Below the pieces are notes generated by a model, which made no database searches, had not been told where the DNA came from, and saw only the letters and a program-made list of their open reading frames with translations. Positions 11,340-19,257 of a DNA stretch of 59,284 nucleotides are shown piece by piece. The stretch is from Candidatus Nitrosocosmicus sp. (GTDB lineage: Archaea > Thermoproteota > Nitrososphaeria > Nitrososphaerales > Nitrososphaeraceae). The position numbers and the translations under genes were made by a program. Position 1 is the first letter of the stretch, and each line of letters begins with the position of its first letter. Location of the stretch: contig JAICXY010000009.1 of the NCBI GenBank assembly GCA_025934495.1, positions 1-59,284 on the forward strand, written 5' to 3'.

Positions 11340-13355
11340 TTGAAATATTATGTTGGGTGCTCCGGATGGAAAAATCAGTCATGGGTTCGGGATTTTTATC
11401 CTGCTGGTTTAGATTCAAAGTATTTTCTATCATATTATTCTAAAGTTTTTAATTTTGTCCATGTTGATTTGAATGATAATCCAATTCCACCGAGTTCTTT
11501 AACAATACAGAAATGGTTAGAAGAAACCCCGGATGATTTTCGTTTTTCTATAACCATACCTTGGTATGTCGTAGAAGAGAGGTGTGGTAGTGGTAAAATA
11601 AAAAATATTGGTGAATTTTTGGAACTTTTGACACCATTACAAGACAAAATTCTTTGCATTATGATATCACCTCCAAAGACCATATCTTTAAAAGATGAAG
11701 GACGGAATTGGATTGAAAAAACATTAAATGAATGTACCTGTTATGGATATTCTGTTGTTTTTGATTTTAATAAGCCTTCTTGGTATCAAGATTTAACTTA
11801 TAACATACTCAAAAAATATGCTTCTTCTTTTGTGTGGTCGGATACAGGCTATAAAGGCTATTATCCTGCAGTAACTTCTGACTTTATTTTTCTTAAATTA
11901 TCTAGTTCTACTTTTGGGAAAAACAATGATGAAACAAGATGGATTAAATTAATCAAACAAAAAGAGAATGAATTTTTTTCTACAGAGACCAAAAATAAAA
12001 AATTCAATTTTGTAGTTGTAGTTGTAAATACACCTGATAATATAAATTCTATTACTGGTTTATTGAATTTGCAAGAGAAACAATTGTACAATTCTCAAGA
12101 TCAATCGACATTTCTTTGGACTGGAAAGGTTATAATGCATGTAGATATGGATGCTTTTTTTCCTGCCTGTGAAGAAATCCGAGATCCATCACTCAGAGGA
12201 AAAGCTCATGCTGTTATTATGACACCTGAAAGCAAAGGAAATATTACTAGAGGTGCGGTAGCATCTTGTTCGTATGAAGCTAGACAATATGGTGTTAGGT
12301 CTGCTATGTCTTTATTAAAAGCTAAAGAATTATGCCCTCATCTTATTTTAAAACCTGTAGATAAGCAATACTATGGTCAAATATCTCGTCAGGTGATGAC
12401 TTTATTGGAAGATTATGCAGATATAATAGAGAAAGCAAGTATAGATGAAGCATATCTTGATTGTACAAATAAAATTATATCTTACATCCATTCTATATCT
12501 CAATTTTCACAAATATCTGGAGATTCGGATGAAAATGCCGAGGTTGTAGAACCTGTTTCAAAAAAAAAAATACAAAAACTTTTTTCAGTTGAGGATTATG
12601 CTCAAAAAATTAAAAACTCCATTAAAGAACAATGCAATGGGCTGGTCTGTTCAGTAGGCGTTGCACCAACTAAATCTGCTGCAAAAATTGCATCAGCTTA
12701 TAAAAAACCAGATGGCCTAACTGTTGTTTATTCTCAGAATTTATTACAATTCCTTGAGTCAATGGAAGTGAATAAAATTTCAGGAATTGGTTTAAAAACG
12801 AATCAAATTTTAAAAGAAATGGGGATTAAAACTATTGGACAGCTAGCAAAATGTGATGTACAGAATCTAATTGAAAGATTTGGTAAAAAGAATGGATTAT
12901 GGATGTGGCATGTAGCTAATGGCCAGGACAATGAACCTGTATTACCAAGAGAAGATAGCATTTCAATAAGCACAGAAAAAACATTGCTAACGCCATATAA
13001 AGACAAGAAATCAATATTGGAATATCTTGTAAATGAAATAGCCGACGATGTTTATAAAAGAGTTAAAGGAAAAGGATATGAATTCAAAACAGTTGGTATT
13101 AAATTAGTGAGATCTAATTTTGTATTAGAAACAAGAGAAACAACATTTTCTACCTACCGTGATGACAAAGAGAGTATTACCTCTGCATTGGAGCCGCTAT
13201 TAGAAAAATTTCATCTGGATAAAATGAATGATAATGATGTGTTTAGCGAGATCGATTCTATATCTATACGAAAGTTGGGGATAAAGGTTTCCAATCTCTC
13301 TAAAATAGATAAAGAAAAATTACCATATCAAAAGACATTATTTGATTATATCTAA
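11340..13355 (+). CDS. DUF72 domain fused to Y-family DNA polymerase (Pol IV/DinB)
   Basis: One uninterrupted 671-residue frame holds two proteins that are normally separate. Residues 1-250 match DUF72 (YecE-like TIM barrel: YYVGCSGWKNQSWVRDFYP, WLEETPDDFRFSITIP). Residues about 263-671 are a Y-family polymerase: VIMHVDMDAFFPACEE (Asp269 metal ligand), SYEARQYGVRSAMS, ASIDEAYLD (Asp369/Glu370), VGVAPTKSAAKIAS, and the little-finger domain. An Asn/Glu-rich insert lies near 392-412. The C-terminus QKTLFDYI fits a PCNA-interacting (PIP) motif. The start is TTG because an in-frame TGA precedes it at 11331. The role is translesion DNA synthesis; the DUF72 contribution is unknown. Confidence 0.92.
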   Translation: MKYYVGCSGWKNQSWVRDFYPAGLDSKYFLSYYSKVFNFVHVDLNDNPIPPSSLTIQKWLEETPDDFRFSITIPWYVVEERCGSGKIKNIGEFLELLTPLQDKILCIMISPPKTISLKDEGRNWIEKTLNECTCYGYSVVFDFNKPSWYQDLTYNILKKYASSFVWSDTGYKGYYPAVTSDFIFLKLSSSTFGKNNDETRWIKLIKQKENEFFSTETKNKKFNFVVVVVNTPDNINSITGLLNLQEKQLYNSQDQSTFLWTGKVIMHVDMDAFFPACEEIRDPSLRGKAHAVIMTPESKGNITRGAVASCSYEARQYGVRSAMSLLKAKELCPHLILKPVDKQYYGQISRQVMTLLEDYADIIEKASIDEAYLDCTNKIISYIHSISQFSQISGDSDENAEVVEPVSKKKIQKLFSVEDYAQKIKNSIKEQCNGLVCSVGVAPTKSAAKIASAYKKPDGLTVVYSQNLLQFLESMEVNKISGIGLKTNQILKEMGIKTIGQLAKCDVQNLIERFGKKNGLWMWHVANGQDNEPVLPREDSISISTEKTLLTPYKDKKSILEYLVNEIADDVYKRVKGKGYEFKTVGIKLVRSNFVLETRETTFSTYRDDKESITSALEPLLEKFHLDKMNDNDVFSEIDSISIRKLGIKVSNLSKIDKEKLPYQKTLFDYI

Positions 13356-14669: not shown

Positions 14670-16175
14670 ATGATATTAAAAAAAAGGATTAGCGGAAAAT
14701 CCAGAAAAATAATTTCTTTGCCTATTTTTGTAGTACTCTTATTAAGCCTTATAACTAATATTTTAATCATCGAAAGTAACGGTCATGTTTTACAAGCTAT
14801 GTCGTCAAAGTCATCATCATTGCCTGTAACTGTTGGTAATGGTACCAATAACAGTAATGATAAAAAAATACAAGTCCAACAACAACAACAACAACTACCA
14901 TCAAAACCCAAGACACATGAATATACACTTATTGCAGAAGATACCACATTAGAAATAGCACCTGGTATTCGTGTGGATGCTTGGACTTATAATGGTACTA
15001 TTCCAGGTCCTACTTTAACAGCAACAGAGGGTGATAGAGTTATAGTTCATTTTATTAACAAAACTCCACTACCGCATACTGTTCACCTTCATGGTGATCA
15101 TGCTAGCAAGGAAGATGGTGTATTTGAACAAGTGCCTGCTAATGGAACTTATACATATGATTTTATTGCCGAACCAGCTGGTGCACTAATGTATCATTGT
15201 CATGTTTCTCCAGTTATGCAGCACGTAAGAATGGGTTTGTACGGAGCTTTTATAGTTTATCCAAAAACACCTTTACCTCCAGCAAGAGAATATGTTTTTG
15301 TTGATGGTGAATATGATACTCAAAACCAATTAAATCCGTTACCAGAATATTATTTTTTTAATGGCTATGCTGAACAATATATGAATCATCCTCTTCCTGT
15401 AAAAACTAATGAAACTGTCCGAATTTATCTTATAAATGCAGGCCTCTCTCCAGCATATGGCATGCATATTCATGGAACATTATTTAAAGCGTATCCATCT
15501 GGCATTTGGGAGAACCCACCATTAAAAGTACAATCATGGGAATTGGCATCGGGTAATACTGCAATCTTGGAGGCCAAGTGGCCCTGGCCTGGTAAATATG
15601 TATTTCATTTCCATGGAATACCTGAAGAAAGAGGCGCGATGGGATACTTTGATGTTACAAATGCGACTGTCAACGCGGTCGATGGAAAGGATATATCCAT
15701 TTCAAAAACTATAAACATGAACGACTGGCAGATGAACCTGACAAATAGTTTACAGAAAGCAGACCCTAAAGGAAAGGTAACTGCAACAACTAATACCACT
15801 GCACCTGCAAAAAATAATAATGAAATGAGCAAAATGGTACATCAATCTTCCCCTTCCATATCTTCTTCCAATACTTCCACTGAAGTCTCGGTAGTAAAAG
15901 GAGCGGCTACCCTTGGCAGTAAAGCATTTTCGCCAAGTCCTCTTAAAATCAAAGTAGGGAGCACAGTTACATGGATAAACAATGATAATAATATACACAC
16001 CATTACATCTGGCAAACCAAATGCTCCTAATGCAGGTGAGGCATTTGATTCTGGTTTAACTGCTCTAATTATGCCAGCTAAAACCTTTTCTCACAAGTTT
16101 ACAAATACTGGGGAATTTTCATACTTTTGTAGATTACACCCTACTATGATAGGAACAATCGAGGTGGTTCCATAA
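14670..16175 (+). CDS. NirK-like two-domain multicopper oxidase with C-terminal cupredoxin
   Basis: This exported 501-residue protein has an N-terminal membrane anchor/signal (residues 15-35) and a Gln-rich linker. Two cupredoxin domains follow, with PHTVHLHG (H136, H139, H141), MYHCHVSPVMQHVRMG (H176-C177-H178, H185), MHIHG (H266, H268) and FHFHGIPEERGAMG (H313, H315). After a low-complexity linker comes a third, plastocyanin-like domain with H443, C487, H490 and M493. Spacing resembles thaumarchaeal NirK-type enzymes, but HLHG and HCH are laccase-like, and Leu190 aligns where NirK has its axial Met. It probably acts outside the membrane in nitrite/NO redox chemistry or as a copper oxidase; the exact reaction is unproven. 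It stands alone. Confidence 0.88.
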   Translation: MILKKRISGKSRKIISLPIFVVLLLSLITNILIIESNGHVLQAMSSKSSSLPVTVGNGTNNSNDKKIQVQQQQQQLPSKPKTHEYTLIAEDTTLEIAPGIRVDAWTYNGTIPGPTLTATEGDRVIVHFINKTPLPHTVHLHGDHASKEDGVFEQVPANGTYTYDFIAEPAGALMYHCHVSPVMQHVRMGLYGAFIVYPKTPLPPAREYVFVDGEYDTQNQLNPLPEYYFFNGYAEQYMNHPLPVKTNETVRIYLINAGLSPAYGMHIHGTLFKAYPSGIWENPPLKVQSWELASGNTAILEAKWPWPGKYVFHFHGIPEERGAMGYFDVTNATVNAVDGKDISISKTINMNDWQMNLTNSLQKADPKGKVTATTNTTAPAKNNNEMSKMVHQSSPSISSSNTSTEVSVVKGAATLGSKAFSPSPLKIKVGSTVTWINNDNNIHTITSGKPNAPNAGEAFDSGLTALIMPAKTFSHKFTNTGEFSYFCRLHPTMIGTIEVVP

Positions 16176-18546: not shown

Positions 18547-19257
18547 CTATAAAATATTTGATCCATTTATTTTAAGCCATTTTATTTTGTCTGGATAATT
18601 AATCATATGGTATTTTATTATTTTCCAAAATCTGTGTGAGTGATTTTTTTCTATAAGATGACTCATTTCATGTAAAACTACATATTCAATTACTTCTATT
18701 GGAGCTTTGATCAAATTTACATTTAAATTGATTATTCCTTTGTATGTAGCGCTACCCCATCTGCTCTTTAGGTTTTTTATTAATATTTTTTTTGGTCTTA
18801 TATTCAGTAAAATCGAATATTTTTCTATAAATTGATTAAAAATAATGGATGATATATTAAATAACCATTTTTCATATATTGTTTTAACTTTGTCTTTATT
18901 TACGTGCATTACAAATTCATTATTTGAGAATTCTAAATAGTCATTTTTATCTTTAACAATTTTTAGGATTACGTTTTTTCCAAGATATGGTAGTGTTGTA
19001 TTATTTTTGTAGGTTGGAAAAATGATTTCAGGTTTTTTTCCGCTATTTTCCTTTATTTTTTGTAATATCCATTCTGCTTTACTGTTCACTAAAGATTCTA
19101 TATCTTCTATAGATTTTGAAAATGGTGCTCGAATCAAAATATCATCATATTTTACCGTTATTTCACTTGTCTTTTTTCTTGCGGTTTTTATTATTTGAAA
19201 CTCTATTTCATTATTTTTATAAACAATTTTATGTTTTTGATTGGCTAAGAAAATCAT
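18547..19257 (-). CDS. YgjP/SprT-like zinc metallopeptidase (DUF45)
   Basis: This 236-residue protein matches the YgjP (DUF45) family. An N-terminal beta domain (residues 10-115) carries IRAPFSKS and AEWILQKI. The family motif LKSRWGS lies at 163-169. The metal site is VVLHEMSHLIEKNHSHRFW, with His196-Glu197-xx-His200 and a third ligand at His206 or His208. Members are soluble gluzincin-like peptidases, often near restriction-modification genes in bacteria. Here it is alone, so no substrate can be suggested. Length and all key residues are normal. Confidence 0.9.
   Translation of the reverse strand: MIFLANQKHKIVYKNNEIEFQIIKTARKKTSEITVKYDDILIRAPFSKSIEDIESLVNSKAEWILQKIKENSGKKPEIIFPTYKNNTTLPYLGKNVILKIVKDKNDYLEFSNNEFVMHVNKDKVKTIYEKWLFNISSIIFNQFIEKYSILLNIRPKKILIKNLKSRWGSATYKGIINLNVNLIKAPIEVIEYVVLHEMSHLIEKNHSHRFWKIIKYHMINYPDKIKWLKINGSNIL

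Follow-up and report, generated by a model that had tools for sequence, protein, structure and literature searches.

The window (the whole 59,284-nucleotide stretch of DNA analysed here) carries a gene in which a DUF72 barrel is fused to a Y-family DNA polymerase, and this fusion is confirmed as real and not as an artefact by its recurrence in related genomes. The explanation that best accounts for the observations as a whole, and which we consider reasonably probable, is that the fused protein is a translesion polymerase tethered to PCNA, whose N-terminal DUF72 module is non-catalytic. Fusion and a corresponding operon tie DUF72, a family with no assigned function, to DNA damage bypass.

Structure of the fused gene

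Table 1. Features of the fused gene and neighbouring genes in the window.
Feature	Residues	Coordinates	Strand	Evidence and remarks
Fused gene, DUF72 barrel + Y-family DNA polymerase	1–671	11340..13355	+	671 aa, TTG start, TAA stop, no interruption
DUF72 domain	20–246	11397..12077	+	Pfam PF01904, 79.7 bits (E 4e-22)
Linker from barrel to polymerase	248–257	12081..12110	+	pLDDT <50 in full-length model
IMS palm/fingers	268–452	12141..12695	+	Pfam PF00817, E 7e-41
Catalytic Asp269 (HVD)	269	12144..12146	+	Column nearly invariant (22-sequence alignment)
Catalytic Asp369-Glu370 (SIDEA)	369–370	12444..12449	+	Columns nearly invariant (22-sequence alignment)
Low-confidence insert after SIDEAYLDCT	393–412	12516..12575	+	Alignment; pLDDT <50
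Helix-hairpin-helix thumb	477–530	12768..12929	+	PF21704 and PF21999 above cut-off
IMS_C little-finger domain	542–658	12963..13313	+	PF11799, E 1e-13
C-terminal PIP box QKTLFDYI	664–671	13329..13352	+	Conserved in relatives
Family X DNA polymerase + PHP domain	621 aa	5040-6905	-	~4.4 kb upstream of fused gene
Multicopper oxidase with C-terminal cupredoxin domain		14670-16175	+	
YgjP-type metallopeptidase		18547-19257	-	Weak SprT-like match; 5 kb from fused gene

The fused gene lies on contig C73 of the window genome (3.56 Mb, 200 contigs, 95.7% complete), and at this completeness the genome yields no Y-family match other than its product. The TTG start codon aligns with the ATG of several relatives, whose proteins begin with, e.g., MKFYIGCSGW or MKYYVGC, and is hence credible.

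The polymerase part contains IMS followed by IMS_C, with the D and D-E catalytic acids of the Y family in place, and is matched best by Y-family polymerases of the Dpo4/Dbh type in a Foldseek search (E-values to 4e-34); its predicted role is lesion bypass. All fused polymerases, and all solo polymerases of the same clade, for which the C-terminus is available have a PIP-like C-terminus, and the pattern Q-x-x-[LIM]-x-x-[FY] is conserved across the fused proteins; from this short motif we infer PCNA binding by the fused protein. Similar to archaeal Dpo4/Dbh, DinB, and Pol IV, the protein has palm, fingers, thumb, little finger, the D/DE acids, and a C-terminal PIP; it differs from them by the N-terminal DUF72 barrel and by a genus-specific insert after SIDEAYLDCT. 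This insert is of low complexity and variable; it is long in the genus of the window only, and short or absent in other genera.

An earlier note, made from the sequence of the window, had described one open frame joining DUF72 to a complete Y-family polymerase, with intact acids D269 and D369/E370 and a terminal PIP-like QKTLFDYI. Each of these points agrees with the present data: Pfam and the 671-codon frame bear out the fusion, the acids are nearly invariant among the window protein and 21 others aligned with it, and a PIP-like terminal motif recurs in every fused protein with an available C-terminus. The search of domain databases and the count of genomes that the note had called for returned DUF72, IMS, and IMS_C, and the fusion in 25 of 70 genomes.

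The PF01904 score of the fused DUF72 domain exceeds the gathering score of 25.3, while operonic DUF72s and relatives such as the solo paralogue on contig C145 of the window genome score 175–204 bits. Modelled alone with AlphaFold2 (pLDDT 81, pTM 0.83), the domain is predicted to form eight strands, in a barrel that spans residues 2–241. The best PDB matches of this model in Foldseek are 1vpq, 1vpy, and 1ztv, all of them DUF72 structures (TM 0.64–0.69); the match to the UVDE structure 3c0l is far weaker (E 3.5e-3). Thus the predicted eight-stranded barrel and the Pfam match are common to the fused domain and the DUF72/YecE-like proteins Tm1631 (1vpq) and EF0366 (1vpy/1ztv); in contrast to these, the fused domain lacks the presumed phosphate/DNA pocket residues and a PIP of its own, and is joined to a polymerase. 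Its resemblance to the TIM-barrel nucleases EndoIV and UVDE is weak, and this comparison concerns the overall fold only. The full-length model (pLDDT 79, pTM 0.50) does not fix the arrangement of the two domains or define an interface, due to the low pTM and the low-confidence linker, which in the model is probably flexible.

Distribution and losses of the fusion

The uninterrupted fusion is present in 25 of the 70 Nitrososphaeraceae genomes searched, in frames of about 600–745 aa, and two further copies run into contig ends. If the truncated copy in genus g2 is counted, 8 of the 12 genera of the family have it. Six of the carriers (G004, G006, G013, G025, G037, G042) are single-contig genomes. 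Hence, a sequencing error hiding a stop between residues 250 and 262 is ruled out, and absence of the fusion from all close relatives, which the note had named as a refutation, is not what is seen. The same observations, together with the conserved W-x-G linker boundary that precedes the polymerase in the alignment of relatives, leave a negligible probability to an assembly or frameshift artefact merging two genes; nothing was found in favour of it. Long DUF72 frames at L213, L220, L227, and L231, from a second archaeal phylum, to which L040 belongs, were considered as candidate fusions elsewhere in archaea and rejected: they contain no second Pfam domain, and the excess length is stop-to-stop overhang.

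The DUF72 domain can be dispensed with in some lineages. Genera g9 and g11, among others, have polymerases of the fused clade that lack it, and in the tree these are nested among the fused ones; tblastn detected no DUF72 remnants upstream of the g9 and g11 solo polymerases. In G028 (L013/L119), the N-terminus of a solo polymerase retains the last strand of the barrel and the linker, i.e., a C-terminal remnant of DUF72, so that at least here the domain has been secondarily lost. In G012 (L012), most of about 15 stops lie within a decayed DUF72 region; the frame of the polymerase, too, is interrupted close to its beginning. Some other Nitrososphaeraceae genomes have a second, solo Y-polymerase.

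Erosion of the DUF72 pocket

In Tm1631, which has been modelled as an EndoIV-like DNA binder and proposed to be an endonuclease, Konc et al. suggested Y48, K72, H79, Q114, R145, and R191 as DNA/phosphate contacts (PMC3828134); a second paper also models this protein on DNA (PMC4939058). We located these six positions by means of a family HMM and an alignment to 1vpq. All six are kept in all 11 operonic DUF72s, and at least five in all 36 solo DUF72s; the fused domains keep 0–3 (26 rows, representing 25 distinct proteins, as L014 and L170 are identical), and the window protein keeps none. H79 is gone in 26 of 26 fused rows, R145 is retained in two, and the FNN motif is either missing or cannot be aligned. 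Apparent structural residues (GxxGW, FYP, W146, T177) are still present, and the alignment reveals conserved motifs specific to the fused proteins, GR-WL and SW(Y/F)Q(D/E)LTY.

For the DUF72 part, pairwise dN/dS is 0.11–0.25, close to that of the polymerase part, with purifying selection in all compared pairs, which indicates that the domain is maintained and not decaying. The fused domain is thus homologous to DUF72, but its pocket is degenerate, and it appears to be a working pseudo-DUF72 module. Loss of catalysis here denotes loss of the conserved pocket, since no DUF72 activity is demonstrated in the papers found.

The DUF72–polymerase operon and PIP-like tails

In 10 genomes from other families of the order, a Y-polymerase gene is immediately preceded, on the same strand, by an intact separate gene for DUF72; the same gene order is seen in one euryarchaeal record (L040). 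Among the best 30 loci of that polymerase clade, DUF72 is upstream of the polymerase in 30 of 30, the genes abutting or overlapping. In 25 of these 30 loci, which are a targeted sample, the C-terminus of the operonic DUF72 carries a PIP or QxxLF motif, under a slightly loose motif definition. A strict PIP pattern occurs in the last 14 residues of 34 of 100 non-fused archaeal DUF72s, compared to a mean of 1.2 and a maximum of 6 after shuffling, and a PIP in the last 12 residues of 5 of 1291 other long frames from the same loci; the PIP-tail counts are not phylogenetically independent. Apparently, the PIP-like tail of archaeal DUF72s has not been described before.

Among solo DUF72s, the tail KKQKTLGNF is frequent in family f9 (L183–L205), and short QKKLF or QKTLF tails are seen in the second phylum (L208–L236). 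Several genomes of family f9 have a Y-polymerase and no match to DUF72. No DUF72 was found beside bacterial Y-polymerases in 72 mostly bacterial loci, searched with flanks of at most 6 kb and an archaea-biased HMM. In well-known control genomes, DUF72 is present in 9 of 14; Sulfolobus acidocaldarius has matches to both DUF72 and the Y-polymerase family (dbh).

An independent study also reports DUF72 genes as enriched near the TLS polymerase PolB2 (PMC11791011). Both cases, hence, have DUF72 by a TLS polymerase locus; however, the PolB2 mutasome neighbourhood comprises a B-family polymerase, iRadA/PPB2, and a separate DUF72 gene (PMC11791011), whereas here the polymerase is of the Y family and DUF72 is in an operon with it or fused to it.

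Proposed mechanism

The proposed mechanism combines the observed domain content, conservation, pocket loss, and operon context with PCNA binding, lesion recognition, and regulation, which we infer. Ancestrally, DUF72 and the Y-polymerase would have worked at the same PCNA ring, where DUF72 would recognise or process a lesion or aberrant primer-template, past which the polymerase would then synthesise. One DUF72 copy would have become joined to the polymerase in Nitrososphaeraceae, and the physical tether would have made a PIP of the fused domain's own unnecessary. The pocket chemistry may thereby have been freed from selection, while the intact, PIP-bearing C145 paralogue (ending in YQTSMSDFSK) remains in the window genome. 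The fused DUF72 would be kept as a part of the bypass polymerase that has no catalytic role but serves in docking, DNA positioning, or regulation.

The earlier note had taken the fusion as a hint at DNA damage handling, e.g., sanitising or sensing of damaged bases, or nucleolytic trimming. The link between DUF72 and DNA damage is strengthened by the operons (30 of 30 loci) and the PIP-like tails (34 of 100). Sanitising or trimming by the fused domain itself is not borne out, as its pocket is eroded, and this loss argues against nucleolytic or hydrolytic action through the usual pocket; a role in sensing or positioning is possible. The statement that DUF72 proteins have no established biochemical function agrees with the papers found.

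Extended to the family, the same reasoning leads to a tentative generalisation, which we regard as possible: DUF72 would be a PCNA-tethered archaeal TLS partner that recognises or processes lesions, joined to Y-polymerases more than once, as an intact-pocket operon and as a pseudoenzyme-like regulator fusion.

Alternative explanations and origin of the linkage

Two alternatives concern the role of the fused domain. It might still be an enzyme, a lesion nuclease or nucleotide hydrolase, that uses different, clade-specific residues; its low dN/dS and the fused-specific motifs could be read this way, as could the endonuclease proposed for Tm1631, but the contrast between the eroded pocket of the fused domains and the intact one of operonic and solo DUF72s, the universal loss of H79 and near-universal loss of R145, and the absence of metal ions from DUF72 crystal structures (PMC3828134) make this improbable. 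Alternatively, the domain could serve solubility, stability, or dimerisation with no role at lesions, the fusion being a neutral chance event that became fixed in a single family. The repeated loss of the domain inside the clade agrees with such an event, and a homodimer surface has been predicted on Tm1631 (PMC3828134); nevertheless, the same two protein families are also paired in operons of the sister families and of one euryarchaeal genome, and the domain is under purifying selection. Both points speak against this alternative, and we hold it unlikely. The reading as a non-catalytic module of the bypass polymerase is the one we prefer.

Another question is whether the two families were linked once or twice. 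In a single linkage, the fusion would be the fused form of the operon of the neighbouring families, produced by loss of the stop codon. The operon indeed has the same order, DUF72 first and polymerase second, with genes abutting or overlapping, and a clade of fused and operon polymerases is compatible with the polymerase data (p-AU 0.18); however, a clade of fused and operonic DUF72s is rejected by the DUF72 data (p-AU 0.003). The fused DUF72s form one clade (support 100/100), which groups in the tree with solo Nitrososphaeraceae DUF72s, e.g., the C145 copy; fused and C145-type solo DUF72s share one side of a branch with support 96/93, and many members of the group containing the fused clade have PIP-like tails. 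The stem branches are long, which is a caveat. A single linkage is accordingly doubtful, and DUF72 and the Y-polymerase were probably linked more than once.

Relation to known systems

Accessory modules are familiar in TLS polymerases, such as the BRCT domain of Rev1 and UmuD/RecA of Pol V. Here, likewise, a non-polymerase module would target or regulate a Y-family polymerase; there is no homology between these modules and DUF72, and a TIM-like barrel is unusual as an accessory domain.

No published account of the fusion, of a DUF72–Y-polymerase operon, or of a DUF72 PIP motif was found in a search that left subscription journals and preprints mostly outside. The lactococcal "yecE" literature concerns a diacylglycerol kinase and is unrelated. 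For the widespread DUF72/YecE family, without a demonstrated function in the papers searched, operon, fusion, and PIP-like tails together suggest a concrete, testable pathway, and the occurrence of an intact DUF72 (operon) and a pocket-less one (fusion) with the same kind of polymerase provides a built-in comparison for the role of the pocket.

Gene neighbourhood

Three neighbours of the fused gene in the window are listed in Table 1. The family X polymerase gene, which gives the window another polymerase of the repair type, has no match at the fusion loci of relatives, where the flanks are mostly short. A multicopper oxidase gene is also present. In ten other genomes of the genus (L005–L012, L015, L016), the fused gene is followed on its own strand by one for a YgjP-type metallopeptidase, and a link of this neighbour to DNA–protein crosslink repair is possible.
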